Shown: positions 8,536-37,762 of the stretch, piece by piece
Layout: each line of letters begins with the position of its first letter
How positions within the stretch are numbered: the stretch's first letter is position 1
Origin: Arthrinium phaeospermum
Lineage: Eukaryota > Ascomycota > Sordariomycetes > Amphisphaeriales > Apiosporaceae
Reading direction: 5' to 3'
DNA length: 64,000 bases
NCBI GenBank assembly: GCA_006503535.1
Contig: QYRS01000006.1
Coordinates: 868,001 to 932,000, forward strand
Translations under genes and position numbers: made by a program
Notes under the pieces: generated by a model
Database searches by the model: none
The model's input: only the letters and a program-made list of their open reading frames with translations
What the model was told of the DNA's origin: nothing

Positions 8536-10080
8536 ATGATGGCATACTCTTGGCTCCGCATCTTCGGCATCGTCGCTCTACTTAGCAACAGTGCCTCCTC
8601 CGCAAGCACGGCTTCAAGCAATGTCCTCAAAACGGATGTCGTTATCGTAGGCGGCGGCGCCGGCGGAGCTCACGCGGCTTTGAGACTTAAGGATATGGGG
8701 AAAAGCATTGTTTTGATTGAGCAGGAAGACATCCTAGTGAGTACTAACGCCACTTTGCCATCGACTACACGCACGCCAACCAATCTAAACCATGTGGTCT
8801 AGGGCGGTAACGTAGACAGCTACTCGCCTCCAGGCACCAGCAACTCCATGGACTTCGGCGTCTTCTCCTTCGTAGACTATGCCGGAGCGACCGCGCTGTT
8901 CGAGCGTCTGAACATTTCCACCGCGCCGCCCTCGCGGGTCCGCGCCCCGACCAAGTACGCCGACTTCGCCACGGGGGAGCCCATCCCAGGGTACACGGCG
9001 CCCGACAGTGCCGCCGCGAGGACGGCGATGGAGAAGTACTTGGTCATCTGCGAAAAGTACGAGGACATGCTGGTACCCGGGCTATGGAACTTCCCGCCCG
9101 GCGACGCCGTCCCCGAGGACCTTCTGATGCGCTTCGGGGACTTTGTAGAAACATACGGAATTGTGGATGCGGTACCCCAGATCTACTCGGTCACCGGCTT
9201 CGGCCTCGGTCGAATGGAGGACGAGCTGACCATGACGGTGATGCAAGGGTTCGGGGCCCAGATGGCGCGCTCCATGTTGGGTCGGCAGGACAACTTCGTC
9301 ACGGCCTCGCACCGGAATCAGGACGTGTACGACGCCATGGCCCGGTTGATCGGCGACGAATCCATCTTGTACGAGACGAAAGTCGTGCATTCAGTACGAA
9401 CACCGGACGACGGGGTCATCCTAACGGCCCAGAACCAGAGGACCGGCGAGGAGACGACCATCCACGCCGCCAAGCTGCTCATGGCCATCCGCCCCGTCGG
9501 CGAGGAAGCCATGCGACCATTCGACCTCGACTCGCAAGAAACGGACGTCTTCTCCAAGTTCGACTACGTGCACGTATACGCGACCCTCGTGCGCCACCCG
9601 TCACTGACGGCCGGCAACACCAGCGTCACCAACCTGCCCGCGGCCGTCGCGCCCGCCAACTACCTCGAGACGCCGCGGCTGCCCTTCCTCGGCAAGTTCG
9701 AGCTGCAGGACAACACGGCCGCGGGGCTCGAGAGCGGGGTGTTCCGGTCCCTCGTGATCGGCACCAAGGACTTTGGCTACGCCGACGCCCGGGAGCTGCT
9801 GCAGTCCTCGCTGGACCGGCTGATTGAGCAGGGTGTCTTGCCCCGTTCGTCATCCGAAGAAGAACAGCAGCCTGTCGAGATAGTGGCGATCTCGGACCAC
9901 GGCCCGATGGCCCTGCGCGTTTCGGCCGAGGAGCATAGGAGAGGCTTTCACCAGAGGCTGTATGCGCTCCAGGGCCATCGGTCGACTTGGTGGACGGGCG
10001 CGGCGTTTTCGAGCCACTTTCAGACCATCATCTGGGAGTTCAACGAAGGTCTCTTGTCGCGGATGCTGGGAGGCAAGTAA
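8536..10080 (+). CDS. Secreted FAD-dependent oxidoreductase (flavin amine-oxidase-like)
   Basis: Two exons, 8536-8736 and 8803-10080 (phase-0 intron, GTGAGT donor), give 492 residues. A signal peptide covers residues 1-23. A Rossmann FAD-binding motif follows at about residues 36-65 (VVIVGGGAGGAHAALRLKDMG, then IVLIEQE). The splice joins this to GGNVDSYSPPGTSNSMDFG, the FAD-contact region seen in flavin amine-oxidase relatives. The C-terminal half contains the ALQGHRSTWWTGAAFSSH stretch of this fungal family. Homologues are annotated as flavin-containing oxidoreductases of unknown substrate, usually secreted. It is followed 330 bp later by another flavoenzyme gene in the same direction. Fold confident; substrate unknown. 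Confidence 0.85.
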
Positions 10081-10408
10081 CACGAAACAATTAAGCGTGG
10101 GATATCATCACTAGATGTCAAAATGGAGGCTATTGTCTTCTGATCTCGGTAGCCATAATTACAGGTTGAAAGGAGAAAGCGCTGTTCTGGGGCCCGAATT
10201 TGGCAAGCGCGGGATCCCATTTTACGGGATGTAGGAATCTGGCAGCTGCCGACGTTACACGAGAAGGTGCAGGGTATGCAACAACACCACGTGATTTGAA
10301 GTGCTTTTTGTTTCCATGTGATTCATCCACTGCGCGTGTCTCATCATTGTAACTCCAACAAACTCATGATTGTACCCGCACTCTCACCGTCCTCTTCTAG
10401 CTCTCTCC
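10081..10408. other. Short intergenic region
   Basis: Contains the 3' end of the FAD oxidoreductase transcript and the promoter of the next gene. No TATA box or coding signal was recognised. Confidence 0.4.
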
Positions 10409-11596
10409 ATGGAGTCCAACCCCACTACCGACCTGCCTGTCCTGATCATCGGAGCCGGAGTCGCCGGCCTCACTCTGGCGCAAGGCCTCCGACTCCGGTC
10501 CGTCCCATTCCGCCTTTTTGAGCGTCATGCACAATCGCACAAGGCGCAGGGCCACCGCTTTCGCATCTCGGGACAAGGCCGAGCGGCCCTCAACAGTGTT
10601 TTGTCGCCCCAGCTCCAGAGTCTGCTGCAACGCTCAGCCCCCGAGATCGGCTCCGCGCCGCGCTATGTCGACGCAAGGAAACTCGAGTTTCCCGACCCCC
10701 AGCCCGCGGATCCCGAGGCAATGCCTCTGGATCGAAGTTGGATCCGCGCATTGACCCTGCTGGGCATCTCCGACGCCGTGGAGTACGAGAAGGCGTTCGA
10801 AGCGTACGAGATTGTCGACGGGCAGGTCCAGGCCAAGTTTGCCGACGGCTCCGTGGCGCGTGGGCAATTCCTGGTCGGCGCCGACGGCATTCAGAGCAGG
10901 GTGCGCAAGCAGCTCCAACCAGACCGGAAGCTGCTCGACCTGGAGCGCTGCGTCATGTGGGGCCGCACCCCGCTGACAGAAGCCGTGCGGGCAAGACTAC
11001 GATCCGAACTACTGAGCTGGTGCATGTATCACGACTACGACGCCAATGTCCAGGCCGTGGTGGACCCGATGGTATGGCCCGAGAGCGGGCTGCAGGAGCT
11101 GGGGGACAGACTGCCCGAGTTCTCCAACTACGTGTATTGGGTCGTGTGCACGGCGCCCGGTCAATACTCGGCGGCGCTGCCCAAGACGACGCAGGAGAAG
11201 GAATATTTCCTGGGGCAGGTGACCCAGGCGTGGCATCCCGACCTGAAGCTTTTGTTCGATCTCGCTGCGCATGAGTTGTCCGCCTGTGCACCAGTCCTGT
11301 CGAGCAAACCCGACATCGAGCTTCGACTGGCGGGCCAAACTGGGCGGGTGACGCTCGTTGGCGATGCGGCGCACCCCATGAGTCCGATGGGTGGTTCCGG
11401 AGCCGACACGGCCATTAGGAACGCAGCGGACTTGGCATTGACCATTGCCGAAAAGGGCGTCACCAAGAAGGACATGATGGAGTACGAAGCAAGGATGGAA
11501 GAGAGAGCAAAAGCGAAGGTGGAGCATTCGTTCCGGGGCGGTCAGAAATTCTGGCACGGAAAGGAATGGACCGAATATGGCGCAGCTGGTATATAA
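10409..11596 (+). CDS. FAD-dependent monooxygenase (class A, salicylate-hydroxylase-like)
   Basis: Single-exon gene, 395 residues. Start chosen at the ATG at 10409 because it sits just before the beta-strand PVLIIGAGVAGLTLAQGLR, the N-terminal GxGxxG FAD site (residues 15-20). The FLVGADGIQSRVR segment is the DG motif of group-A flavin hydroxylases, and VTLVGDAAHPMSPMGGSGAD is the GD motif contacting FAD ribose. This order and spacing are those of FAD_binding_3 monooxygenases that hydroxylate aromatics or polyketides using NAD(P)H. No membrane segment is obvious. With the nearby P450 and FAD oxidoreductase it suggests oxidative modification of small molecules, but no core biosynthetic enzyme is present. 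Confidence 0.88.
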   Translation: MESNPTTDLPVLIIGAGVAGLTLAQGLRLRSVPFRLFERHAQSHKAQGHRFRISGQGRAALNSVLSPQLQSLLQRSAPEIGSAPRYVDARKLEFPDPQPADPEAMPLDRSWIRALTLLGISDAVEYEKAFEAYEIVDGQVQAKFADGSVARGQFLVGADGIQSRVRKQLQPDRKLLDLERCVMWGRTPLTEAVRARLRSELLSWCMYHDYDANVQAVVDPMVWPESGLQELGDRLPEFSNYVYWVVCTAPGQYSAALPKTTQEKEYFLGQVTQAWHPDLKLLFDLAAHELSACAPVLSSKPDIELRLAGQTGRVTLVGDAAHPMSPMGGSGADTAIRNAADLALTIAEKGVTKKDMMEYEARMEERAKAKVEHSFRGGQKFWHGKEWTEYGAAGI

Positions 11597-12205: not shown

Positions 12206-13408
12206 CTAAATGGAACTCCTCTGCACTGCCCTCTCATTCACGAACCCCGGCTCCGGGCTGTCCCAGCTGTAGTCCTGCCACTCGCCCAACGCGGGCCACA
12301 AGACCTCGCGCACCAGCCTATCCGTGCGGCGGATCCTGTCCCCGCTCCCCGACGGCGTGGCCGCGCCGTCGTGCGAATCCAGCGCCTCCAGCACTCCCTC
12401 CCACTCGCGCACCGTCTCCTCCAGCTCATCAACCGACGTGACCCCCATGACGCTGCCCCCGACCGTCGTGGTAGTGGCAGCGCCTTGCGGGCTGCAGGGC
12501 AGCTGGATGCCGACGCCAGCGAGCGCCCCCACGCGCGCCCACTCGTAGAGCGACCAGCGAATGGCCACGGCCTCGAGCCGCTCGCCCGCCGCGGCCGCCT
12601 TGTCCGCGAGCGTCTTGCAGGCCACGCGGAGGGCCGGCGGGGACGGATGCCACTTGGCCAGCGGCGAGCCCCCCGACGCGGTCTCCGGGTCCGGCGGGAT
12701 GCCCGTCGACGTCAGCAGGCCCATGTTCAGCATGCTCGCGTTCAGCACCACGTCCACCCCGGCGGACTTGAGGCGTCGGACGGGGCTGCCGTCGTCCACG
12801 ACGCCCATGACCTCGGCCCGGGCCAGCGAGCAGTTCTGCACCGTGAAGTGGCCGTAGCTGAGGACGGCGTCCAGCGGGGTCCCCGTCTCGCGCAGCACCG
12901 TCTCGGCGAGGTCGCACAAGACCAAAACGGGGAACCCGCTGATGCCGACGGCGCGGACCTGGGGGATGCGGCGCAGCTCCGCGACGGCCTCGAGGACCTC
13001 GCGGGGCGAGACGAACTCGACGTCGTGCAGGTACACGAGGTCCAGGTAAGGGGTGTGCAGCCGCTCCAGGCTGCGCCGGACGCTGGACCGGATGTGGGCG
13101 GGGGAGTAGTCGAAGACGCGAGGCGCGATGCGGCCGGCCTTGGTGATGATGCAGTACGACTCTCGCGAGACGCCGGATTCCTGCGCGGCCGCCAGGGCGT
13201 CGCCCAGAAGCAGCTCCGAGGGGCCGTAGTAGGGCGAGGTGTCGAAGGCGGTGACGCCTAGCTCGAGCGCGCGGGACACGATGCGCCGGTAGGGCATTTG
13301 TAGGGGGTCGGCGACGTATTGGGTGTTGAAGGTGGCCGTACCCAGTATGAGAGGAGGCAGGCGCTCACAGAGCGGGCGGGTCTGATGGTTTGTGGCGGCT
13401 TTTTCCAT
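12206..13408 (-). CDS. ARA2: Aldo-keto reductase, NAD-dependent D-arabinose dehydrogenase (Ara2-like)
   Basis: Single-exon gene, 400 residues. By family it oxidises D-arabinose to D-arabinono-1,4-lactone, the penultimate step of D-erythroascorbate synthesis in fungi. The AKR catalytic tetrad is visible: Asp56 and Tyr61 in AFDTSPYYGPSE, Lys90 in CIITKAGR and His128 in LDLVYLHDVEF. The start LILGTATFNTQY and the C-terminal SVMGVTSVDELEETV match the Ara2/L-galactose-dehydrogenase branch rather than typical xylose reductases. It is divergently oriented, 944 bp from a D-arabinono-1,4-lactone oxidase gene that encodes the next enzyme of the same pathway, which strongly supports the call. Cytosolic; no targeting signal seen. 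Confidence 0.88.
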   Translation of the reverse strand: MEKAATNHQTRPLCERLPPLILGTATFNTQYVADPLQMPYRRIVSRALELGVTAFDTSPYYGPSELLLGDALAAAQESGVSRESYCIITKAGRIAPRVFDYSPAHIRSSVRRSLERLHTPYLDLVYLHDVEFVSPREVLEAVAELRRIPQVRAVGISGFPVLVLCDLAETVLRETGTPLDAVLSYGHFTVQNCSLARAEVMGVVDDGSPVRRLKSAGVDVVLNASMLNMGLLTSTGIPPDPETASGGSPLAKWHPSPPALRVACKTLADKAAAAGERLEAVAIRWSLYEWARVGALAGVGIQLPCSPQGAATTTTVGGSVMGVTSVDELEETVREWEGVLEALDSHDGAATPSGSGDRIRRTDRLVREVLWPALGEWQDYSWDSPEPGFVNERAVQRSSI

Positions 13409-14352
13409 TGTGGTGATTTACTTCCAGCGGTTTACTCTCTATTGGACCAAGTGTATGCGTATAGATATGCAGAAGGTGTTGTTCGGGATGGCTTAGAAAG
13501 TGTCTTTTGTGGTCTGGGCCTAGGTGCTTATCAGCAGGATGCCGTTTGCGTGCGAGACATGACTGTTTGTTACGAGACGGGACAACAGAACTATGTACAT
13601 GCATCTGATTGATGATATGATTACTGGTTGATATGTTTTAGCCAGGGAGTTTGATCTTCCATGGCGCATGTCCTATAGCATAGCTGTCATTGTTTGACAG
13701 GCAAACGTTTCTTCTGACAAGGTCTTGTTTCTTCTTGGCAGAAGCGGTAAATGGCTGAAGCGTCGCTGACTCGCTCTCGTTTCTTCTAGATGGAGACACA
13801 GAAATAGATGCAACCCGGCGGGTCTACCCTTGTCCGTGGGTAGTGGCAAGTGCATGCAGCAGCACATGCGGGTCGATCTGGAGATCTCCGGACCCCTACC
13901 CCTGATCAAACACTGATGCGCCAAGACCTGGCCGACATGGATCCCACACAGTGTGTTTCTCCCTTTCGCATTCTACATACGTTACTCACTCCCTCGCTAC
14001 AAAGACGGGTAAATGTCATCCCATCTGTCTAAGCACCATTGAGGACGGGGCATCCCAAACATCTATTCTGAGCATCGGAAAACCCGCGTCCCGCATGACA
14101 CGATGCGACACCGCCTAGCTCATCGAAACTTACCAAGAGAGGCTTTCTCAGTCGCCAGGCTCTTTCAATGCGAGTGGCTTTTCCCATACCCAGTTCCCCT
14201 CACCACTGGTTGAAATTGATGGATGCTTCGCACATATTCGCATGCAAACAAACAAACAAACAAAAACCCAACCAGACTTCGTCCCCTTGGTCGCATACGG
14301 CAATTTCCATAATACCACACAAACAAGTTCGCTGAGCGATATTGTTAAAAAA
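13409..14352. promoter_or_regulatory. Shared promoter region of the ARA2/ALO1 divergent pair
   Basis: This 944-bp spacer separates two head-to-head genes for consecutive enzymes, so it probably holds a shared regulatory region. A CAAA-type microsatellite (ACAAACAAACAAACAAA) lies near 14250, just before the ALO1-like gene. No specific operator was identified. Confidence 0.5.
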
Positions 14353-16041
14353 ATGGCCCCCTCGTCTTCGTTGCCCACTGCGATGGACCCCCAAATCCAG
14401 ACCATCATCGACGACGTCGTCGGCCAAAGCGGCGTGCCCTTCCGGGCCCGGCGCGCCCACACGCACGCGACGTGGGCCAAGACCTTCTCGTCGCGGCCGG
14501 AGCTGTACCTCGAGCCCGAGACGCAGGAGGAGGTGGAGCAGGTCGTGCGGCTGGCCCGGCTGTGCCGGCGGCGGCTCGTCCCCGTCGGGCACGCCCACTC
14601 GCCCTCGACGCTGACGTGCACCAGTAACTGGATGCTGAGCCTCGACAAGATGAACCGGATCCTGTCCTTCGACGACGCGACGGGCGTCGCCACCATGCAG
14701 GCGGGCATCCGGCTGTTCCAGCTCAGCGACGAGCTGGCGCGGCGGGGGTTCGCCATGCCCATCATGGGCAGCGTCAACGAGCAGAGCATCGCGGGCGTCA
14801 TCAGCACGGGGACGCGGGGCAGCTCGCTCAAGCACGGCCTGCTGTCGGAGAGCATCACCTCGCTCAAGATCACGCTGGGCAGCGGGCAGACGGTCGCGTG
14901 CTCCGCGACCGAGGACCCAGACCTATTCCGGGCGGCGCTGCTGTCGCTGGGCGCGCTGGGCATCATCACCGAGGTGACGTTCCGGGCGGTCCGCTCCTTC
15001 GCGCTGCGGTGGGACCAGCGCATCGACACCGACGCCCGCGTCCTGGCGACCTGGGACACGACGCTCTGGACCCAGGCCGACTTCGTGCGGGTCTGGTGGC
15101 TGCCGTACACGCGCCGCGCCGTCCTCTGGAAGGCCGACGCCGTGCCCCAGGCCGACCTCGACAGCGGCCGCGAGGCGCTGCGCGACCCGCCCGTCGGCTA
15201 CTACGACGGCGCCCTCGGCTACCACATCTATCACAACCTGCTGGCGCTGGCGCGGTGGGTGCCGCGCATCGTGCCCTGGATCGAGTGGTTCGTCTTCGGG
15301 CTGCAGTACGGCTTCCGGAACGGCGAGTCCACGCGGACGAGCGCCGTCCAGCCCAGCGCGAAAGCCTTCTGGATGAACTGCCTCTACAGCCAGTACGTGA
15401 CCGAGTGGGCCATCCCCCTCGCCCGCGGCCCGGAAGCCCTAGCCCGTCTGGGCGCCTGGCTCAACCGGCTGCAGCCGGGCGACCCGGGCTACGTGAAGCA
15501 CGGGATCCCCTTCAGCGCCGAGGGCGTCTACGTGCACTCGCCCGTCGAGGTGCGCGTCTGCGACGGCCGCGCCCGCACCACCGGCGCCGCCCGGCCCTGG
15601 CTCGACTCCACCGTCAAGGACGGGCCCACGCTCAACATCAACGCCACCATGTACCGCCCCTACCTGCGGGATCCGCCGGGGCTGGAGCGCTGGTTCGCCG
15701 GCTTCGAGTGGCTGATGCGCGACCTGGGCGGGCGCCCCCACTGGGCCAAGAACTTCGGCGTCTCGGCCGAGGAGCTGGCCGACTGGTACGGTGACGACCT
15801 GACGCAGTGGCGGCGCGTGCGCGACGCGGCGGACCCGGACGGGCTGTTCGTGGGGCCCTGGCACCGCCAGCACGTCCTCGATCCGGCGGCGCCGCGGTAC
15901 CCGGCTGAAGAGCGGGAGACGGGCAGGGTGAGCGCGGGGGCGCAGACGGGGGTGACGGTGTTGGGGGACGTGCAGACGGTCAAGGCCGGGGAGGCGGCGG
16001 TCCACAGTCGACAGGACTCGGGCGTGTCAGCCGTGCAGTAG
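14353..16041 (+). CDS. ALO1: D-arabinono-1,4-lactone oxidase
   Basis: Single-exon gene, 562 residues from the ATG at 14353; an upstream in-frame ATG at 14242 adds only low-complexity residues. FAD-linked aldonolactone oxidase that turns D-arabinono-1,4-lactone into D-erythroascorbate with O2, forming H2O2; yeast Alo1 is a mitochondrial outer-membrane protein. The N-terminal PCMH-type FAD domain carries PVGHAHSPS (His80/His82), the conserved flavin-linking region, and the glycine-rich NEQSIAGVISTGTRGSS. The C-terminal ALO domain carries PHWAKNF, the conserved HWxK active-site signature. Length matches the family (about 550). Divergent from the ARA2-like gene, giving two consecutive pathway steps side by side. 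Confidence 0.93.
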   Translation: MAPSSSLPTAMDPQIQTIIDDVVGQSGVPFRARRAHTHATWAKTFSSRPELYLEPETQEEVEQVVRLARLCRRRLVPVGHAHSPSTLTCTSNWMLSLDKMNRILSFDDATGVATMQAGIRLFQLSDELARRGFAMPIMGSVNEQSIAGVISTGTRGSSLKHGLLSESITSLKITLGSGQTVACSATEDPDLFRAALLSLGALGIITEVTFRAVRSFALRWDQRIDTDARVLATWDTTLWTQADFVRVWWLPYTRRAVLWKADAVPQADLDSGREALRDPPVGYYDGALGYHIYHNLLALARWVPRIVPWIEWFVFGLQYGFRNGESTRTSAVQPSAKAFWMNCLYSQYVTEWAIPLARGPEALARLGAWLNRLQPGDPGYVKHGIPFSAEGVYVHSPVEVRVCDGRARTTGAARPWLDSTVKDGPTLNINATMYRPYLRDPPGLERWFAGFEWLMRDLGGRPHWAKNFGVSAEELADWYGDDLTQWRRVRDAADPDGLFVGPWHRQHVLDPAAPRYPAEERETGRVSAGAQTGVTVLGDVQTVKAGEAAVHSRQDSGVSAVQ

Positions 16042-17028
16042 TTGATTAGAAGTCAGATCGCGAGATACATATTGCGCTGTGGAGTAATCATGTCAATGTT
16101 CATTTTCTTCGAGCAAAAAAATAACGATGTTCCAACGATGCCCGTGAATTCAATGTAATCGACTTTTCTTGTGCTAGATTTGCATTGGGCCTTGCTTTGG
16201 CAGTTGTGCCATTGCCGCCGGCGATGCTAACGATGGTTCATGAGTAAGGCATCTGATCTCATGCCTCGACAATTACTCGCACATATTGCCTATTCGCGCT
16301 CATATTAGTTACTAATGCCAAGAATACTTTATTGCTTCGCCAAGAGGCCGTAAGTTAATTACACGTGGAATAAATTTATGTCGACGTCATATCAGCCGAA
16401 ATAGCTTATTCAAAATATGAGTCTCACGTAGCTAAGCTTTCGAAATGCAACATGTTCATCGAATGAAGTCTGGGACGGGGGCAGCTCTCGGCGTCGCACA
16501 GGGATGGTGCTGCTTACCGCGTTAAAGTCCGAGGCCGAGGCCGAGGGTCTAGACCCCTCATCGTACGTTGCTTGCGCTGCTGAGTCGGATATCTCCATTC
16601 AGGCTTGCAGCTCGCTCTGGTACATGACTCGCCCCATCCACTCGTACATGCCCAACTTTGAGAGATTGGCCAATAGACGGGGCCCGTTTCATACTTCAGA
16701 CCGAGATCGAACAAACCTCAGTGGGAGCTACTCCTAAACATACAATGGCCGTTTCCATTAGACAAGTTCCCATAACAAGAAACATTGAACAACATTCTAA
16801 TGGTATTCCATTGAAATAACTACATCAGTTACGTTAGGACTACTTGCATGCCATTACCATTTTACTGATGTAAATGTAACCAGCACGCACGCCGTTGATC
16901 TGAAGTGGGAAACGACTGAAAATAGTCCGTGTGGATAAAAGAAAACTCCAAAGCTAGAAATGCAGATACGTACATGCATGTACCACCAGAAGCTCTCCAC
17001 CCCCAAAGTAACCCAATCTCATCGGCAA
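16042..17028. other. Intergenic, no supported gene
   Basis: Mixed-composition DNA between the convergent ALO1-like and DUF89 genes. Short open frames at 16410-16740 show no domain or splice logic. Confidence 0.5.
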
Positions 17029-18685
17029 CTACCGAGCCTGCGAAAACTGGACCACCGCCCACTTTCCGCTCCACGCCCACCTGCGAGGCCCACTGAGAGG
17101 CGACTCATTCGCGGCAGAATCAAATCCCGGGTCGGTAGCCGCCCGCAGCTCCTCGTCCCTGCCCGGCGGGAGCCCAACCACGACATCGGCCTTGCACGTG
17201 CGCAGCGCCAGCACGTTGACGTCCGCCAGAGACGGGGTGGACGCGTCTGCGTCTTCACCCCCTCCTACTGTCTGCCTCCAGCCGGGCGCCGGCGCCGTAA
17301 TGGCCTGGAGGAAGGGGGTGGTGGGCGACCAGGCCCGGTCGCCCGTCAGCTTGCGGTAGTTCAGGTCTCCCTTGAAGATGACCAGGCCGCTGGTGCGGAG
17401 CTCCGCCAAGAGCGGCGGGTCCTCGCGCGACAGGGCGGCGAAGCCGCACGGGAGCGTCCAGAAGGGGCTGGTGCGCAGGGAGAGCCGGCCCTCTTTGCGG
17501 AACGACTCGAGCTGGGCCGAGAGGAAGGCGAGGTCCTCGACGAGGCTACTGCTGTTGTCGCTGTCTGACCCGAAGAAGAAATCCGCAGGGTTCGAGAGGA
17601 CGCCCAGGAGGGCCTCGAAGTCGGCGGGCGTCACGTCGGACACGAACCAGGGGATGTTTTTGGGGTGAAACACGACCTCGCGCGCCAGGCCGGAGGAGAG
17701 GAGGTAGCCGGCGAGGAGCAGGTCCACATAGAGCTCAAACCCGGAATTGTCCAGGACGATGTCCACCCGCGATGAAGAGGACGACGAGGACCCCCGGCTT
17801 GCGGCTGGCGGCGGCGGCGCTCCGGAGCTTCTCGTAGACCCGCGGCAGGTCGTTGACCAGGATGTTGCTCTCTGCCGCCTTGCGCGCCGCGGACCCCTGC
17901 AGCTTCTGGATGTCCTCATACGAGAGGTTCGTGAGCAGGGACAGGTCCGTGGCGTTGCCCCAGAGGCAGATCTCGAACATCTCGCCGAAGAGGACCTGCT
18001 CCTCGGCACTGCCCGGCGTGGCGGCCGCGCCCGCGTGGTGGGAGGCAACAATGCCCCGGTACCGCGCGGCGAGCTCGGCCACGGCCGGCTGGGAGGACCG
18101 GAAGGTGCTCATCTTCTGGTTCATGAAGGCGTCGTAGTCCTTCCAGTGCGCCGAGAGGCGGAAGTGGGTGCTGATGCGCTTGAACAGGTAGCACTCGCAA
18201 AACAGCCAGGGCGAGCTGTGCCACGTCTGCCGGCCCCCCGAAGCCTCGAGCTCTTCATTGTAGGAGGCTATCTCCGGACTGCCGTCATCCACCAAGGGAC
18301 TGAATAGTCATAGCCGAGACTTAGTCAACAGGTCCTCTAGTGTGGGTCTCTTTTTCTGGAGCTGTTTCTTACCAAAGCTTAGCACCTTCCAGGATGTCGT
18401 TCTTTAGGCTTTGGAGCGTTGCTATGAGTGCACAGCCCTCATCCACCTTTGCCTGCACATGCACGTGCTGGAAGACGGCTTTGGTGAGGTCGTCAACAAC
18501 TCCAGTCTACCAAATATGTTAGCCAAGATTGCAACTAAAACTGCATCTGCACTATACGGGGACAAATGCAATGGAATTGCACTCACAACTATGATGGGCC
18601 ATCTGGTTCTCGCCGTCTCGTACCCGAAAGAGGATGGGTCGGCAGTGGAATAGGGAGTAGGGCAGCTGGTGGCTGAGTGCGACAT
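17029..18685 (-). CDS. DUF89/ARMT1-family metal-dependent sugar-phosphate phosphatase, apparent frameshift
   Basis: Three exons: 18587-18685, 18373-18506 and 17029-18299. Exons 1-2 rebuild the N-terminus TARTRWPIIVTGVVDDLTKA. Exon 3 carries SSPWLFCECYLFKR, the catalytic VDIVLDNSGFELYVDLLLA (Asp/Asn/Glu metal site) and VIFKGDLNYRKLTGDR, all diagnostic of DUF89. Relatives (yeast YMR027W, human ARMT1) are Mn/Co-dependent phosphatases acting on sugar phosphates such as fructose-1-phosphate; ARMT1 was also reported as a carboxyl methyltransferase. The frame breaks between the first half of exon 3 and the metal-site half. One base fewer in the C5 run at 17791-17795 would join them into about 500 residues, the family's length. 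So this is either a consensus error or a damaged gene. It lies between the ALO1-like and SIS genes. Confidence 0.82.
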
Positions 18686-20066
18686 GGTTGGATGGGACTA
18701 AGTGGTGTGACTGAAAAAATGTATATTGATTGCGAGACTTGAAAAACATAAAAACGGCAAAGAGATGAGTAACCAACGATATCAATGGATTTTGGTAAGT
18801 CCCAGTCTGCTGTGTAAGTACTTGGAGCTGATTGACGGAGAAGAGAACCAAGTCACGGCTCAGATCCAGAGCCGATAGGCTGGGACAGGGTCGTTGTAAC
18901 CCGCGGGCTGGAAGGGTGTCAGACTGCCCGCCCGCGAGAGCCAAGAGCCAAGAGGCAGTGCTATACTTAGCCCTTCTGACGTGAACCCCGCAGGGACCCC
19001 GGCGACCCGTCAATGCATGTACTTTTCCATCGATGGTGGGGACGGGGGACAATGCGTACGTAGGCCTCGATGATGCTGTAGTGGCAGTCAGAGGCAATCA
19101 GAGGCAATCTGAAGCGCCATGGGCAACAATAGGCTGGAACATTCTAGACCCGCCGTGGGGTGGGAAGGGCATGGGATGTGCCCCTGTCGGGCATCTCTGA
19201 TTGATTGATGGATAAGATGCGGCATCTTGCAGCACGGCAGCATGGATTTGGCTTCGCCCCCGGCACCCGGCTCAGACGAAACGTCGAAACATTGGCATGA
19301 TATCGACAGGGCTCCGGGGTGGAGCTCCCCCCCCTGGCCGCACACCTCGGATCCGGATTTTCCCGACAGCCAATCGCCCAATGCAGGAAACAGCAGCAGA
19401 TAAGAGGCCAAAGTTAGATAGACAGCGAGCGATATAGAGTTTGTTGCATTGGATCCCGATAGAATGGCCTGGCTATGCTATTGGCACATGGGCAATATCC
19501 GGCCGTCCCTGGCGAACTCCCCCATATCTTGGCCAGACGAACGCGCCCCCTGTCGACCCCTGGAGGATGACCCTGTCATCTGCCCACGGCATAGAGATGA
19601 AACATAGCTGCGTATGTCGTCATCCCATTTAGATCGCTGCCAATGGAAGAGCCGCATGAGTCTCGTCAGGGGTACATGTCCGGGACCTTCACGACCTCGA
19701 CCTCGGCAATATCGGCATCTGCGCTAGGCTGCAAACAAGATGGTGAGCACGGGAGATCGATCATACCATATCTTCATGTGCATCTAGAATCATATCTATA
19801 AGATGAGAATGATTCCCAATGGAAATCATGAATAGAAACACAAGCCAATCAGACTTCCATCTCTCTATCTCTTTCTCATTCTTATCATTCTTCTTCTTCT
19901 TACCAGCCGGTCTGATCAACAATATCAAACCGTCATTTTAATCGGTCCCACAACTGAATTGCGTATTCAGCACCTCATTCTTCTTCTTCTTCTCGCCTTT
20001 ATATTCTTTCTCGCCCGTCTTCGTCAAGCACGAAGATCTTCTTGTCATCTCACTCAACTCATCAAA
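18686..20066. promoter_or_regulatory. Long divergent intergenic region with CT-rich leader
   Basis: Separates DUF89 (minus) and SIS (plus) genes. The last 200 bp before the SIS ATG are strongly pyrimidine-rich (CTTCTTCTTCTT stretches near 19890 and 19980), a common 5' leader of well-expressed fungal genes. Nothing else is recognised. Confidence 0.45.
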
Positions 20067-20879
20067 ATGGTTTCCTCGCCCATGAACCGCAAGTCCGAGT
20101 TCACCATGTTGAAGCCCCTCGACATCTCCCGTCTCTCCTCGCCGGACTGCACGCGGATCTCGTCCCCCAAGTCCCCGAACTCGATGGCCTCCTTCATGAA
20201 GCCCACCACCCTGCCGGAGCCGGAGCCCAGCACGGCCAACCGAGTCGCCGGCGCCTTCCACGTGCTCGCCACCGAGGCCAAGTCGCTCCTGGCGCTGAGC
20301 CACCTCTACGCCGTCCACCCCGAGGCGCAGACCGGCTTCACCCAGGCCATCGAGGCCATCACGCAAAGGCACGGCGAGCAGCGGGGCAAGCTCGTCCTCT
20401 GCGGCGTCGGCAAGTCGGGCCACATCGCCAAGAAGCTGGTCGCCACCTTCAACAGCCTGGGCATCCAGACCGTCTACCTGCACCCGACCGAGGCGCTGCA
20501 CGGCGACCTGGGCGTGGTGGGCCGCCACGACACCCTGCTCTTCGTCACCTACTCGGGCAAGACGCCCGAGCTGCTGCTGCTGCTGCCCCATATCGAGGAT
20601 TCCGTGCGCGTCGTCGTCCTGACCTCGGCCACGCGGCCCGGCGACTGCGAAATCATCCGCCACCGCCCCGACTCAATCCTGCTGCCCGCGCCCTGCTACG
20701 AGGCCGAGAAGACGTCGTTCGGCGTCAACGCGCCCACCACGTCCGTCACCATGGCCGTCTCGGTCGGGCACGCCCTCGCCATCGTGGCGTCCCGGGAGAT
20801 GTACCGGTCGGTGCCGGCCGTCTTTGCCAAGAACCACCCGGGCGGCGCCATCGGCGCCGGCTTCAAGACGAGCTCGTGA
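20067..20879 (+). CDS. SIS-domain sugar isomerase, KpsF/GutQ (arabinose-5-phosphate isomerase)-like
   Basis: Single-exon gene, 270 residues; ATG at 20067 is in good context (ATCAAAATGG). Residues about 60-265 form one SIS domain of the KpsF/KdsD/GutQ type, which interconverts ribulose-5-phosphate and arabinose-5-phosphate. The signature GVGKSGHIAKKLVATFNSLG gives Lys116; LHPTEALHGDLG gives His145; SGKTPEL gives Glu168; EAEKTSFGVNAPTTS gives Glu212/214; NHPGGAIG gives His257. Lys116 and Glu168 are 52 residues apart, the same spacing as Lys59 and Glu111 of E. coli KdsD. The bacterial C-terminal CBS pair is absent. Fungi make no KDO, so A5P would need another use; the nearby D-arabinose enzymes suggest one. 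Fold firm, reaction inferred. Confidence 0.85.
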   Translation: MVSSPMNRKSEFTMLKPLDISRLSSPDCTRISSPKSPNSMASFMKPTTLPEPEPSTANRVAGAFHVLATEAKSLLALSHLYAVHPEAQTGFTQAIEAITQRHGEQRGKLVLCGVGKSGHIAKKLVATFNSLGIQTVYLHPTEALHGDLGVVGRHDTLLFVTYSGKTPELLLLLPHIEDSVRVVVLTSATRPGDCEIIRHRPDSILLPAPCYEAEKTSFGVNAPTTSVTMAVSVGHALAIVASREMYRSVPAVFAKNHPGGAIGAGFKTSS

Positions 20880-22421
20880 AGTTGCTGGTAGTCTCGCACT
20901 TGATTATACTTGCTTAGACAGGCATGTCACATTTTTGTTTTCGAGGAGAGCGTCTGCGATGATGATTTTCGGGAATTGGCAATGGGTGGATTAGACTGGA
21001 GCGCCGAGGGCCGCTACGCATAGACTGCATTTCTTTTCTGCTTTTTGTTTCTTGCAAGACAAGACTGCCATGCATATAGATTGTGTCTTCTTTCTTTATT
21101 TTGCGATGCAAGACTGCGAGTATATATGGTTCGATATTGTACATAGACGGATATGAGGAGAGCGCTGCAATTTACTTCACTTGTTCAAGAGCACCATGAC
21201 CAGGATGCCCAAATGTGACACGTCTCCTGGCTTACTTGTGTGCACTTTTGAATACATGTGGCGTGTATTGACAAACTATTTAGATTTGGTTTCTAAAACA
21301 TATTCCCGTTGCCAATCTTTCACTCGTTCGTGGTGCCGAAAGCATGGCATCGACTATTTCTGGACGTTCGTGCCAAGTGAATGCCAAGGTCGATCATGAT
21401 CATCCCTGATGCGAGCATGTACAATGTAGTAGCCCCGAGAGATGGGAGAGGCGTGGGTGACACCCTGCACCCGATCACTTTCCCAGTCCGTTGGGTCCAG
21501 CCAGGGGGCAGAAGAAACAAGCGAGCTGGGTTAGAGTTTCCACGCAACAGTACCACTGCCACAGCTTTACGAGTGCATATTGTACGACCTATAGTACAGC
21601 TCTGTATAGGCAGGGTTCAGCCGGCCGCGGAGTCCGATCGATTGGCTGGCAGGGGTGAGTGTTGGGTGGGTTCCCGCCTGAAACAAGGTCACCTGCCATC
21701 CCACGTACGTGATCCTTGGCACAGTGTTTGGGGCTTGGCAGGCATGGGTTGTACCCAAGATCCCGGGATAGAACACGGCAGACCTCCCCAGCGAGTAATG
21801 TACCCATGTAGCGAGTCAGCCGCCTACTACCATGTGGGCCGAAATAGTCCCGACAATCCTGCGTGCATCATATTGGAGCCGCATGGTTGGTAGGTATACA
21901 CCTATGTATTCGCCCGATTCGGAAAACCCGGGGCAATGGTCCCAGTATAGCCGTCTCGGGCAGGCTGTCAGGGCCTGGCCTTTGGTCGGTATTTTGGTCC
22001 ATATGGGGCCTATATTCGACACAGAGGCTGGTCGGGTCTGTTTGACGATAGGCAACCATGTCGTCGAGCACTGGGATGTCGTTATCGGGGAGTGCCCATT
22101 GTTCGTTTCTGTTCGTGCCAGTGTTTGGTGTCAAAAAGTTTCATGCTCCCTCGCCAGGGTGGGAGCCATGTGGATGGGGGGTTCAACGGATATGGACACT
22201 TTGGGCGTATGCGTGTGTGTGCACGCGTCTGTGAGGTTCCTCCCATTGCAACATTGGTGACCCAGGCGTAGTTTGCAAGACGTTCGGTCCGACACCACCA
22301 TACCGAGGGCCTCCTTCCATTTCCCGTCTTCCTCGTAACACGGCGTTTTGATTGTTGTTTGTTTTTCGGGTGTACTATATGAGTATTGGTCCAACTACTA
22401 CTACACATCGAGGCTATTTCC
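20880..22421. other. Long intergenic region
   Basis: About 1.5 kb with scattered short frames on both strands (for example 21381-21893 plus and 21868-22134 minus) but no recognisable domain, repeat or splice pattern. It probably contains the promoter of the following MFS gene. Confidence 0.45.
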
Positions 22422-24398
22422 ATGGCACAGCTCAAGTCGCCCACATTGTCCTACGCACCCGAAAGGGGTAGAGACTTTGCTCCGCCGGGTGTACTGGAGA
22501 CGAACAAGCGAGCCACCAAGCGATCTTCGGCATTCCGGGAGAGCTGGCTGTTCCGGCAATCGACACATCGAGCATGGCGGTCATCCTTCCGGATACCCAA
22601 CGGCGGCGGCGGCGGAGGTCGTGCCGCCCTCGGCGATCTCAACAAGAGAACGTCCATGTTCAACACCATGGCCCAGCAGCTCGACCAGATCTTCTACCAG
22701 CAGTCGGCCCTGCCCGAGGAGTGGTTCTTCGAGATCCCCGACTACAACTTTGCCGACCTCAGCGAGATCAAGGAGAAGAGGAGGCGGAGCAGTTATGTCT
22801 TTTACAGAGAAAGTTGGGATGAGAATGAGAAGGGGATACAAGAAGAAGAGGACAACGACGACGATGATGACGTCCCGGATCCCAAGAAGGACCTGCAGGG
22901 CTTCAAGGTCAACTTCGCCCCCGGCCACGACCCGGCCAACCCCAAGTGCTGGTCCACGGCCTACAAGATGGCCATCGTGGCCGGCTTCGCCTACACGGCG
23001 CTGTCGACGGGCATCTACTCGACGGCCTACTCGAGCGGCATCGCCGAGATGTCCAAGGAGCTGCACATCGCCGACCCGACGCTGCCCTCGCTCGGCATCT
23101 CGCTCTACCTCGTGGGCTTGGCCTTTGGGGCGCTGATCATGGCGCCGCTGAGCGAGACGTTTGGCCGGAGGCCCATGTACATTGCCGGCATGTCGACTTT
23201 TGTCGCGCTGATCCCCGTCGCGGCGCTGGCTAACAGCTTCACGGCTGTCCTTCTCGCGAGGTTCTTTGGCGCCGTGGCCGGAAGCGTAATGCTGTCCAAC
23301 GTGGCGGGCTCCATCATCGACATCATCGAGCCGGGCTACCTGCCGCTCGCCCTGTCCGTCTACAACTTTGGCCCATTGAACGGACCCGTGCTCGGCCCCC
23401 TCGTTGTAAGTGACATATATTTGTTTCCGTGTTCTCAATCGTCTAGGTCTAACGGTGTTTCCATACAGGGCGGCTTCCTCGTCCAAGGCTTCGGGTTCCG
23501 GTCCCTGAGCTGGCTCTCGTTCATCACGTGCGCCCTCGGGGCCATCTTCATCATGACGATCCCCGAGACGTACCGGCCGGTGCTCCTGCGCAAGCTGGCG
23601 GCGCAGCGGCGGGCCGAGCAGAAGGACGACCGGTTCTGGAGCGAGCACGACGCCGACGGCCAGCTGCCCCTGGCGCGGCGGGTCCGGACGGCCGTGTCGC
23701 GGCCCTTTGTGCTGTCCTTCACGCAGCCCGTCCTCATGTTCTGGAACGTCTACGTCTCCGTCATCTACGCCATCGCCCAGCTGGCCTTCATCGCCTTTCC
23801 CATCGTCTTCACCCAGATCCGCGGCTGGTCGACGGCGCTGTCGGGGCTGGCGTTTATCGGCATCTTTGTGGGCATCGCCCTCGTCCTCCTGCTCTCGCCC
23901 CTGCTGCGCCGCCTCGTCAATCACCCGCGCCTGCATCCCAAGAACCCCGACACCGGCCGCCCCGAGCCCGAGGCCTCCGTGTCCGTCGTCTGCATCGGCG
24001 CCGTGCTGGCGCCCGTGGGCCAGCTCTGGTTCGCCCTCACCTCCCTGCCCGTCGAGGTGCCCTTCTACTGGAGCGTGCTGGCGGGCCTGCCCTTCGGCTT
24101 CGGCTTCGCGCTCGTCTTCATCTACGGCACCGGCTACGTCTCGGCCGTCTTCGGCATCTACGCCACCTCGGCCTCGGCCGGCAACCTCGTCTTCCGCTCG
24201 CTGCTGGGCGCCGCCCTCGTCTTCGGCGGCAAGCCCCTCTACGCCGCCCTGACCCCGCGCACGGCCGGCATCGTCATCGGGCTGGTCGAGCTCGCGCTCG
24301 CGCCCATCCCGTTCATCTTTTACAAGTACGGCAAGAGAATACGGCAGCGCAGCGCGCTGATACGCGAGCTCGAGGCCAAGGCGAGGCAGTCGACCTAG
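22422..24398 (+). CDS. MFS transporter, DHA1 (polyamine/drug:H+ antiporter) type
   Basis: Two exons, 22422-23405 and 23469-24398, give 637 residues. The 63-bp intron is a multiple of three and has no stop, but its GTAAGT donor and CATACAG acceptor and the interruption of a membrane segment (PVLGPLV then GGFLVQGFGFRSLSW) show it is spliced. A long hydrophilic N-terminus (about 180 residues, acidic run near 150) precedes about 12 membrane spans. Motif A is GALIMAPLSETFGRRPMYI and motif C-like LNGPVLGPL follows, as in DHA1 exporters (Tpo1/Flr1-like). The plasma membrane is the expected location. Start taken at the ATG at 22422 (good context CCATGG); 22386 is also in frame. Substrate unknown. Confidence 0.88.
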   Translation: MAQLKSPTLSYAPERGRDFAPPGVLETNKRATKRSSAFRESWLFRQSTHRAWRSSFRIPNGGGGGGRAALGDLNKRTSMFNTMAQQLDQIFYQQSALPEEWFFEIPDYNFADLSEIKEKRRRSSYVFYRESWDENEKGIQEEEDNDDDDDVPDPKKDLQGFKVNFAPGHDPANPKCWSTAYKMAIVAGFAYTALSTGIYSTAYSSGIAEMSKELHIADPTLPSLGISLYLVGLAFGALIMAPLSETFGRRPMYIAGMSTFVALIPVAALANSFTAVLLARFFGAVAGSVMLSNVAGSIIDIIEPGYLPLALSVYNFGPLNGPVLGPLVVSDIYLFPCSQSSRSNGVSIQGGFLVQGFGFRSLSWLSFITCALGAIFIMTIPETYRPVLLRKLAAQRRAEQKDDRFWSEHDADGQLPLARRVRTAVSRPFVLSFTQPVLMFWNVYVSVIYAIAQLAFIAFPIVFTQIRGWSTALSGLAFIGIFVGIALVLLLSPLLRRLVNHPRLHPKNPDTGRPEPEASVSVVCIGAVLAPVGQLWFALTSLPVEVPFYWSVLAGLPFGFGFALVFIYGTGYVSAVFGIYATSASAGNLVFRSLLGAALVFGGKPLYAALTPRTAGIVIGLVELALAPIPFIFYKYGKRIRQRSALIRELEAKARQST

Positions 24399-35446: not shown

Positions 35447-36346
35447 GGGAAATATGTTGCTCAACGAAGCGCTACAAACGGAATTGATGAATCAAAGACC
35501 CGGACTTCTATGATAGATTTGCAGGCCACAGGTAACTGTGACAATATGGTCTTTATACTACTCGGTGTGCGGTAAAATACATCAGTGGCGACACTTCTGA
35601 AAACCTCGCGTTCCACAGGTCCCAAAAGACCGGGGACATAGACGGCACAACGGCAGACTCAGATAGCCGAGCGAACTCGGCATCGGGCAGAGTGAGGACT
35701 GGGTCCATTACACCATGTTGCATTGCAGGCAGAGTCAACCAGGAACACATTTCGAAGTCACTGCCGTATGAGTGAAGATCATGCCCCGAGCCCGTTGACG
35801 CCATAGTGGGACAGTATGGTGGATGAGCTTATCTCAGTATCTATCTCGCCTATGCGCATCTGATTGGGGAGGCTGGCGTTGTGCCTATCAAGGTTCGGGT
35901 GTTGGTCAGGGAGCGCGACGGAGATTGTGGATTGCGTGCCGGGCGCGAAGTATGGCGAATCTCCGAGAAGGGGAAGAAAGATGCGGGGCTTGCAGTTGGC
36001 ATCCCCCCGTGGTGGAGTCAAGACGTGATGCGCCGGTTGAATCATACCAATAGTCAGAACCCAGTCCAGTACAAGATTTACTTGGTGATAAAGAACCCGA
36101 TCGGGCGAGAAGCAGGGTCGTAATTACTGCAAATCATAATTAATATCTCCAAATCCCACGTACCCCCGGCAATCCACTGTTGCCCATATCAAGTACTGCC
36201 GCCAGTTGCCTCTCGGGTTTCGTGAATATTCATGTGTAGTTGTCAAGAATCCAATTCGAAGTCATTCTAATTGCTATCTTAGCCCGGCTGGTTGATCAGA
36301 ATAACTCCCACAAGTCCACCTGCCTCTGGAACCAACACACATCACC
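35447..36346. promoter_or_regulatory. Divergent promoter with several GATA-factor sites
   Basis: Bidirectional region between DUR3 and the flavin monooxygenase. HGATAR-type sites (AreA/NIT2 consensus) appear at 35511-35516, 35661-35666, 35829-35834, 35841-35846, 36086-36091 and 36274-36279 on either strand. Two open frames on the minus strand (35553-35804 and 35779-36045) overlap and are not called genes. Nitrogen-source control is inferred from the sites and from DUR3 biology. Confidence 0.5.
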
Positions 36347-37762
36347 ATGGCAAGCAACAGCGAAGGCGGCAAGAAGCCAATGATCCTCAATGCCTTCGTC
36401 ATGAACACCCCCGGCCACTTGTCGCCCGGCCAATGGCGACACCCGCGGAACAAGACGGACCAGTACAAGAAGCTGTCCTTCTGGGTCGACTTGGCCAAGC
36501 TGCTGGACGAGGCCGGCTTCCACGCCATGTTCATCGCCGACACCCTGGGCCCCTACGACGTCTACAAGGGCCCCAGCAACGTGGTGCCGGCCCTGGCCTC
36601 GGGCGCCCAGTTTCCCGTCAACGACCCCTTGTACCTGGTCCCCAGCATGGCCGCCGCCACCAAGCGCCTGGTCTTTGGCGTCACGGCGAGCGTCACCTAC
36701 GAGAAGCCCTACTCCCTCGCCCGCCGCCTGTCCACCCTCGACCACCTCGCCGACGGCCGCCTGGCCTGGAACATCGTGACGTCGTACCTCGACAGCGCGG
36801 CGCGCAACTTTGGGCTGAGCGAGCAGATCCCGCACGACGAGCGCTACGCCATCGCCCACGAGTACATGGACGTCCTCTACAAGCTGTGGGAGGGCAGCTT
36901 CCGGGACGACGCCGTCGTCGCCGACCGGGAGAGCGGCGTCTACATCCAGCCGGACGCCGTGCGGCCGATCCGCCACGAGGGCAAGTACTTCAGCGTCCCG
37001 GGCCCGCACTTCTGCGAGCCGTCGCCGCAGCGCACGCCGCTGCTGTTCCAGGCCGGCGTGTCCGAGGCCGGCAACGGCTTCGGCGGCAAGCACGGCGAGG
37101 CCATCTTCGTGGGCGGGCAGACGCCCGAGACGACGCGCGCCGTCGTCGACAACCTGCGCGCCGTGGCCGCGGCCGAGGGGCGGCGGCCCGAGCACGTCAA
37201 GATCCTCGTGGGCATGACGGTCGTCGTGGCCGCCACCGACGAGGCCGCCGAGCGGGCGCGCGAGGAGCACCTGCGCTACGTCGACGAGGAGGGCGCGCTC
37301 GCCCTGTTCGGCGGCTGGACGGGGCTCGACCTCGCGGGCTACCCGGACGACGCCGACTTCAGCCTGCTGAGCGAGGCGCCGCGCGTGCAGTCCGTGGTGC
37401 GGCGCTGGGCCGCGACCGTCCCGGGCACCGAGGACCTGCCCTGGACCAAGCGGCGCATCGTCGAGTACCTGAGCCTCGGCGGGCTGATGGCCAAGGCCGT
37501 GGGCGGGCCCCAGACGGTCGCCGACGAGCTGGAGCGCTGGGTCGAGGTCGCCGGGGTAGACGGGTTCAACCTGGCCCACATCACGAACCCGGGCAGCTTC
37601 GAGGACATCATCGAGTTCCTGCTGCCGGAACTGCGGGCGAGAGGGCTGTTTGGGGTGGATGTAAAGGCCGAGGGCGCCACAGCTAGGGAGGTCTTTGTTG
37701 GATCGAAACGATTGCCAGATGACCACCCTGGGAGCCAATACAAATGGCGGGCTGGAGAATAG
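36347..37762 (+). CDS. FMN-dependent monooxygenase, NtaA/SnaA/DszA type
   Basis: Single-exon gene, 471 residues, ATG at 36347 in a good context. Belongs to the bacterial-luciferase-like flavin monooxygenases that use reduced FMN from a partner reductase to oxidise nitrilotriacetate, dibenzothiophene sulfone or similar compounds. Characteristic stretches: MILNAFVMNTPGHLSPGQWR at the start, AGFHAMFIADTLGPYDVYKG, SVTYEKPYSLARRLSTLDHL and GRLAWNIVTSYLDSAARNFG in the middle, and PLLFQAGVSEAGNGFGGKHG. No targeting signal. Divergent from DUR3, so it may act on a nitrogen- or sulfur-containing nutrient. Substrate unknown; no flavin reductase gene is nearby. Confidence 0.9.
   Translation: MASNSEGGKKPMILNAFVMNTPGHLSPGQWRHPRNKTDQYKKLSFWVDLAKLLDEAGFHAMFIADTLGPYDVYKGPSNVVPALASGAQFPVNDPLYLVPSMAAATKRLVFGVTASVTYEKPYSLARRLSTLDHLADGRLAWNIVTSYLDSAARNFGLSEQIPHDERYAIAHEYMDVLYKLWEGSFRDDAVVADRESGVYIQPDAVRPIRHEGKYFSVPGPHFCEPSPQRTPLLFQAGVSEAGNGFGGKHGEAIFVGGQTPETTRAVVDNLRAVAAAEGRRPEHVKILVGMTVVVAATDEAAERAREEHLRYVDEEGALALFGGWTGLDLAGYPDDADFSLLSEAPRVQSVVRRWAATVPGTEDLPWTKRRIVEYLSLGGLMAKAVGGPQTVADELERWVEVAGVDGFNLAHITNPGSFEDIIEFLLPELRARGLFGVDVKAEGATAREVFVGSKRLPDDHPGSQYKWRAGE

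Follow-up and report, generated by a model that had tools for sequence, protein, structure and literature searches.

Fungi have D-erythroascorbate as their counterpart of vitamin C, and in Magnaporthe oryzae the loss of the last enzyme of its synthesis cuts growth, conidiation, peroxide tolerance and infection, while added D-erythroascorbate brings infection back (PMC8782026, the part available to us). Here we describe four neighbouring genes of Arthrinium phaeospermum, which code for an ARA2-like dehydrogenase, an ALO1-like oxidase, a DUF89-family phosphatase and a SIS-domain isomerase. The best single explanation of this group, to which we give a probability of about 0.55, is a dedicated cluster for the synthesis of D-erythroascorbate from ribulose-5-phosphate.

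The closest described system is the ARA2-ALO1 pathway of yeast and other fungi, in which the last two steps are the same (an aldo-keto reductase and a TIGR01678 oxidase). This pathway pair was known before the present analysis; both steps are established for these families elsewhere and are carried over to the present proteins by analogy. To our knowledge, yeast ARA2 and ALO1 do not form a cluster with an isomerase or a phosphatase. Unlike yeast, the locus described here has divergent ARA2 and ALO1 copies beside both.

The other related system concerns the origin of D-arabinose. In the part of PMC11301363 available to us, labelling experiments with Crithidia indicate that ribulose-5-phosphate is the D-arabinose precursor, and GFAT is the proposed eukaryotic isomerase; the origin of D-arabinose is still termed unknown there, and the phosphatase unidentified, in 2024. 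The GFAT route and the present locus would have the same series of steps in common, i.e. ribulose-5-phosphate to arabinose-5-phosphate and then, by a phosphatase, to D-arabinose. Unlike the GFAT route, the locus puts a candidate for a dedicated isomerase and one for the phosphatase beside the last two steps. We found no published account of such a cluster among the open-licence papers listed. With a candidate isomerase and a candidate phosphatase named by such a cluster, the D-arabinose origin can be tested directly with four genes.

Gene content and arrangement of the locus

The window, i.e. the whole stretch of 64,000 nucleotides that was analysed, corresponds to C6:868001-932000 (C6 is contig QYRS01000006.1) in a genome of 48.45 Mb and 19 contigs. 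All four genes are present at 12206-20879 and each has a Pfam match, so that the coordinates and the families agree with the preliminary description, which had placed the group within 8.7 kb. The layout is that of two head-to-head pairs set tail to tail, first the ARA2-like and ALO1-like genes and then the DUF89 and SIS genes:

12209-13408, minus strand: predicted ARA2-like D-arabinose dehydrogenase, an aldo-keto reductase of 400 amino acids without intron (PF00248)
13409-14352: divergent promoter region of 944 bp between the ARA2-like and ALO1-like genes, from gene orientation
14353-16041, plus strand: predicted ALO1-like D-arabinono-1,4-lactone oxidase of 562 amino acids (TIGR01678, PF01565 and PF04030)
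17029-18685, minus strand: DUF89/ARMT1-like metal-dependent phosphatase (PF01937 on both pieces), with approximate exons at 18685-18587, 18506-18373 and 18299-17029
18686-20066: divergent promoter region of about 1.38 kb between the DUF89 and SIS genes, from gene orientation
20067-20879, plus strand: predicted KpsF-type sugar-phosphate isomerase of 270 amino acids, SIS domain only (PF01380)

The ARA2-like and ALO1-like genes are divergent neighbours, as had been noted before, with strands -/+ and the 944 bp between them. No other gene was recognised within the group either, in agreement with the earlier claim: none of the four open reading frames of at least 100 amino acids scanned in the gaps between the genes, including 18555-19097 and 19091-19477, has a Pfam match, and ARAGORN detects no tRNA in the window. 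By its protein matches the window belongs to Apiospora, and the nearest proteins among the matches listed are those of A. marii (98% identity for SIS, 96% for ALO1 and 88% for DUF89).

Second copies in the same genome

For each of the four genes a search of the genome turned up one more clear copy, and no two of these lie close together. The second SIS copy is at C8:734301-734974 (pieced-together region C8:734154-735356), and the second DUF89 copy at C1:529-1247 when only the C-terminal piece is used as query (pieced-together region C1:514-2014). The second ALO1 copy (C6:2851928-2853556, 58% identity) is on the contig of the window, about 2 Mb away. The second ARA2 copy at C10:2736155-2737336 is full-length, with 57% identity in the genome search and 51% over 417 columns by blastp. 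Weaker matches are other family members (ALO1 21-33%, ARA2 about 35% identity).

Since four unlinked copies are found elsewhere, the locus represents the pathway in duplicated and clustered form and not the sole fungal set. As to gene identity and step order the preliminary description holds; what it overlooked is that the clustered genes are themselves second, divergent copies, besides an unlinked set in the same genome. It is likely that the four clustered genes are a functional module, and the strongest argument that they work together is that diverged, compatible duplicates cluster here and their counterparts lie dispersed.

The C8 and C1 copies show several frame changes in this assembly, with the residues still conserved, which means either local assembly indels or recent decay, i.e. 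pseudogenes. Pfam domains were found in one of the six open reading frames neighbouring these two copies. The start of the contig is no more than about 2 kb from the C1 copy. The protein match lists do not contain the usual Apiospora SIS and DUF89 proteins; this absence is uninformative because the pieced-together C8 and C1 copies (250 and 465 bits) score below the last matches listed. A short fragment in two frames at C6:3458526-3458737 corresponds to residues 212-280 of the ARA2-like protein of the window, with 65-72% identity. It is either what is left of a gene or a piece split by an intron, and is nearer to the clustered ARA2 than to the C10 copy.

The encoded enzymes

The ARA2-like protein matches PF00248 at 2.3e-38. 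In the PDB its first match is 8k1i (2e-45), followed by five chains of L-galactose dehydrogenases (7ezi, 8scc, 7smi), and the positions of the Asp-Tyr-Lys-His tetrad are seen in the alignment. We take this tetrad to be the mark of aldo-keto reductases, and ARA2 to be akin to the L-galactose dehydrogenases. Judged from its sequence, the gene product is an aldo-keto reductase of the ARA2/L-galactose dehydrogenase type, with D-arabinose as the predicted substrate. The ALO1-like protein matches the sugar 1,4-lactone oxidase model TIGR01678 over its whole length with 424.3 bits, above the curated cut-off of 396.8, and PF01565 with PF04030 at 2e-81. It is classed as a sugar 1,4-lactone oxidase of the ALO1 type, for which D-arabinono-1,4-lactone is the predicted substrate.

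The SIS protein matches PF01380 at 7e-11. Its AlphaFold2 model has a mean predicted local distance difference test score (pLDDT) of 80, with low values for most of residues 1-50. In a Foldseek search (50 matches listed) the first nine are chains of 3etn, 2xhz, 3fxa and 5uqi, with template modelling (TM) scores by target of 0.74-0.87; MurR, GmhA and MurQ rank lower. The 2xhz structure is that of the arabinose-5-phosphate isomerase domain from E. coli and 5uqi that of an E. coli CFT073 protein with bound arabinose-5-phosphate, while 3etn (Bacteroides fragilis) and 3fxa (Listeria) are titled putative sugar-phosphate or phosphosugar isomerases. Residues K116, E142, H145, E168, E214 and H257 are invariant in all 38 aligned proteins (the window protein and 37 of its 120 listed matches), and correspond by alignment to K59, E85, H88, E111, E152 and H193 of KdsD, which we presume to be catalytic. 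In other words, according to the model the SIS protein has the fold and the catalytic residues of the solved arabinose-5-phosphate isomerases, and isomerase activity is predicted. The fold and the catalytic Lys/Glu/His positions are common to bacterial KdsD, GutQ and KpsF as well as to 3etn and 5uqi. The window protein has in addition an N-terminal extension of low predicted confidence that KdsD, GutQ and KpsF do not have.

The relatives of the SIS protein were taken from a search in which 120 were listed out of 1371 matches at E <= 0.001, with lengths to about 472 amino acids only. Of these 120, 107 have 353-472 amino acids and an extra C-terminal part, 13 are shorter than 300 amino acids, and all those with an organism name are fungal. 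In bacteria the product of arabinose-5-phosphate isomerase goes into lipopolysaccharide, and the bacterial enzyme has no obvious eukaryotic homologues according to the available part of PMC11301363. Many fungi contradict this latter point, because fungal SIS matches exist, as does the annotation of C. albicans orf19.1797 as D-arabinose 5-phosphate isomerase in a table of PMC9887641 (seen in part); the activity of the fungal proteins is a prediction.

The DUF89 protein matches PF01937 in two pieces (6e-51 and 2e-24; 174 and 87 bits against a gathering cut-off of 25), and the metal-site motifs DN(S/A)GFEL and GDLNYRKLTGD are present. Its solved relatives are the fission yeast Duf89 proteins and yeast YMR027W. 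PF01937 and both motifs are common to YMR027W, S. pombe Duf89, human ARMT1 and the window protein. Unlike these proteins, the clustered Apiospora copies make up a long-branched clade, separate from the other fungal members of the tree, in which residues beside the conserved motifs have changed. We infer arabinose-5-phosphate as the DUF89 substrate.

Linkage in other genomes

Linkage in other species was read for SIS, DUF89 and ALO1 from locus tags and shared contig size. Each match stands for a cluster at 90% identity in which several assemblies may be mixed, and equal contig size is an indirect sign; adjacency proper is given by consecutive tags and by one 14,085-bp contig only, which bears both SIS and DUF89. 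In A. phragmitis the tags PG994_005213 (ALO1), 005214 (DUF89) and 005215 (SIS) are consecutive. In A. arundinis PG995_006505 (SIS) and 006506 (DUF89) are consecutive, and ALO1 (P0247) is on a contig of equal size. In A. hydei and Apiospora sp. TS-2023a the contigs of SIS and DUF89 are of equal size. Within Apiospora the contigs were of equal size in 5/7 SIS-DUF89 pairs, 3/3 SIS-ALO1 pairs and 2/4 ALO1-DUF89 pairs, counts that leave out matches without a partner (A. arundinis SIS P0006 and ALO1 P0244-P0246) and, for SIS-DUF89, the DUF89 matches of A. saccharicola, A. rasikravindrae and A. aurea, P0128 and P0132.

Outside Apiospora, SIS and DUF89 matches of 23 species or strains were paired by eye, and in 18 of them the contigs differ in size. 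The five equal-sized pairs are all from Sordariales (Bombardia, Apodospora, Lasiosphaeria hispida, Lasiosphaeris hirsuta and Cercophora LCS_1). In Cercophora LCS_1 the tags of the usual SIS and DUF89 genes are 128 apart. Because 18 of the 23 pairs differ and the Cercophora tags are so distant, the usual copies outside Apiospora are not clustered, and no SIS-DUF89 adjacency was seen outside Apiospora among the 23 species or strains paired from the listed matches. The comparison of gene order in Sordariomycetes gives a divided answer, with partial linkage in some other Apiospora and none found beyond among the listed matches.

Origin of the clustered copies

Trees were built from hand-picked matches, 47 of 120 for ALO1 (by a quick method), 37 of 120 for SIS (SIS core only) and 44 of 120 for DUF89. 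The clustered copies of ALO1, SIS and DUF89 form separate divergent clades, and the other copies of the genome fall among Xylariales: the second C6 ALO1 copy pairs with a Xylariales protein, the C8 SIS copy groups, with moderate support, with Neoarthrinium and related fungi, and the C1 DUF89 copy with Neoarthrinium, Seiridium and Neopestalotiopsis (99/95). The clade of the clustered ALO1 contains six Apiospora matches including the window, three from Colletotrichum, and Thozetella, Paramyrothecium and Stachybotrys (100 in the Shimodaira-Hasegawa-like approximate likelihood ratio test, SH-aLRT). The clade of the clustered DUF89 has 13 members including the window, and the nine homologues with an organism name are all from Apiospora (100/100). 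The clustered SIS clade consists of eight members of the Apiospora clade (99/98) and one long branch.

In approximately unbiased (AU) tests, the placement of the Apiospora SIS copies with the short Colletotrichum SIS proteins was not rejected (p-AU 0.30), nor was their placement with Xylariales (p-AU 0.11). For the clustered DUF89 copies, placement with Xylariales (0.24), with all Sordariomycetes matches (0.50) or with the genome's own C1 copy and its nearest matches (0.11) was not rejected either. We make no claim of horizontal transfer, because the AU tests leave an origin of SIS and DUF89 within Xylariales unrejected. Three Colletotrichum proteins (P0079, P0085, P0113) are SIS-only, about 270 amino acids long and on a long branch, and a second type of Colletotrichum ALO1 (P0248-P0250) groups with the clustered Apiospora copy. 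The Colletotrichum matches listed for ALO1 and for SIS come from different species.

The proposed pathway

According to the preferred reading, i.e. a dedicated D-erythroascorbate cluster, the SIS protein would convert D-ribulose-5-phosphate to D-arabinose-5-phosphate, and the DUF89 protein would remove the phosphate to give D-arabinose. The ARA2-like protein would oxidize D-arabinose to D-arabinono-1,4-lactone, and the ALO1-like protein would turn the lactone into D-erythroascorbate. The isomerisation is reversible and would be drawn forward by the removal of the phosphate and the two oxidations. The four extra, diverged copies could be switched on pair by pair, each head-to-head pair from one promoter region, while the other, unlinked copies of the genome would provide the basal pathway. 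The preliminary description had graded the last two steps as established and the first two as deduced, and we arrive at the same grading: family, structure and position suggest the first two steps, and the co-regulation and the product, D-erythroascorbate, are likewise proposed. That a linked isomerase and phosphatase would answer where D-arabinose comes from is, on the other hand, too strong, as yeast DUF89 prefers fructose-1-phosphate and linkage in Sordariomycetes beyond Apiospora was not found among the listed matches.

A wider suggestion is more tentative and, in our view, has well under even odds. The usual unlinked KpsF-type SIS and DUF89 proteins might be the missing first steps of D-erythroascorbate synthesis across Pezizomycotina, with Apiospora having assembled diverged duplicates of the genes for all four steps into an inducible cluster. 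If this were true, the eukaryotic D-arabinose route would gain a dedicated isomerase and its first phosphatase candidate.

Several points weigh against the preferred reading. The substrates of all four proteins are predictions. The proposal of GFAT as the eukaryotic isomerase has experimental support: both the yeast and the human enzyme rescue an isomerase mutant of E. coli, and the human one turns ribulose-5-phosphate into arabinose-5-phosphate (PMC11301363, in part). The best substrate of yeast Ymr027w and human ARMT1 is fructose-1-phosphate, according to the available part of PMC8669784. Unlike KdsD, GutQ and KpsF, the window SIS protein has the SIS domain only and misses the curated cut-off of TIGR00393 (kpsF/GutQ; 114.3 bits against 203.7), with only positions 1-151 of the 268 of the model matched. 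It also has GHALA in place of the GDALA motif (residue 235), a change that it shares with eight relatives of the Apiospora clade and with no other of 121 fungal SIS proteins (the 120 listed matches and the window protein), of which 108 have GDALA and four neither form. The GD of this motif is also found in 2xhz, 5uqi and 3etn but not in 3fxa, and the change may alter the activity or specificity of the enzyme. As regards linkage, SIS and DUF89 are on contigs of different size in A. marii and A. kogelbergensis, as are ALO1 and DUF89 in A. marii and A. saccharicola. Finally, the reading frame of the last DUF89 exon changes once in this assembly, somewhere from about 17738 to 17800. Nine of the 12 other DUF89 protein models of the Apiospora clade continue smoothly through this stretch, and in P0123, P0130 and P0131 there are gaps or unusual residues in or close to it; the frame change is likely an assembly error or a private indel.

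Alternative explanations

The results on GFAT, the preference of Ymr027w and ARMT1 for fructose-1-phosphate and the GHALA change also speak for the alternative that survives best, though we consider it unlikely. Here ARA2 and ALO1 alone make D-erythroascorbate, the SIS and DUF89 proteins have other tasks, e.g. the clearing of by-product sugar phosphates such as fructose-1-phosphate, and D-arabinose comes from a side activity of GFAT or from outside. This would leave unexplained why diverged SIS and DUF89 copies lie beside ARA2 and ALO1, and the consecutive SIS and DUF89 tags of A. phragmitis and A. arundinis argue against it as well.

It is rather improbable that the four genes are one module with another product, such as a related lactone, a glycoside, or a precursor either of oxalate or of a secondary metabolite, possibly with the help of flanking genes. 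The other features of the window that were considered are the following:

1685-2575: cytochrome P450
5885-7459, minus strand: gene close to the group that codes for an Sde182 nucleoside-hydrolase-like domain together with its C-terminal domain
8803-10080 and 10370-11596, upstream of the group: flavin adenine dinucleotide (FAD) monooxygenase-type gene and an open reading frame that is flavoenzyme-like by eye (no Pfam match)
22383-24398, downstream of the group: major facilitator superfamily (MFS) transporter
36305-37759: luciferase-like monooxygenase

The genes at 8803-11596 and 22383-24398 are possible further members of the cluster. The presence of an FAD monooxygenase-type gene on one side of the group and of a transporter on the other, with a P450 and a luciferase-like monooxygenase in the window, is consistent with another product, as is the patchy distribution of the ALO1 clade, which is often seen with accessory pathways. 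Moreover, fungal D-erythroascorbate can be glycosylated and is linked to oxalate (PMC8782026, the part available to us). But the 42 stretches of the window scanned with Pfam, which did not include small exons and other open reading frames, contained no synthase domain for polyketides, peptides or terpenes, nor any glycosyltransferase.

That the genes came to lie together in an accessory region by chance or hitchhiking, without shared function, is very improbable: linkage was not found beyond Apiospora, the contig data of three Apiospora species disagree and cluster-type ALO1 occurs in genera without cluster-type DUF89 among the 120 listed matches, but each of the four is a second copy of a gene that fits the pathway, all lie within 8.7 kb and in two divergent pairs, SIS-DUF89 adjacency is kept in A. 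phragmitis and A. arundinis, and the catalytic residues are kept. For a 17.4-kb span in the 48.45-Mb genome and two copies per family, the chance of each further two-copy family falling within 8.7 kb is roughly 7e-4, a guide and not a test as the families were picked post hoc.

Promoter regions and base composition

The two divergent regions were searched for Yap1-type sites, and none was found. Each region has a single exact copy of the 11-mer CGGCGGGTCTA (13816-13826 and 19145-19155), which has no other exact occurrence in the window. We rejected it as a shared promoter motif: 0.74 shared 11-mers are expected by simple shuffles, so this is not beyond chance, and as many near-matches were found in 7 of 100 shuffles of the window. 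The two regions share 26 9-mers against 9.3 expected and eight 10-mers against 2.5 expected, from letter shuffles that ignore neighbouring-base bias.

The GC content at third codon positions (GC3) is 0.86-0.97 in the four genes as compared to 0.75-0.93 in six other genes of the window. In the second ALO1 copy (C6:2851928-2853556) it is 0.94.

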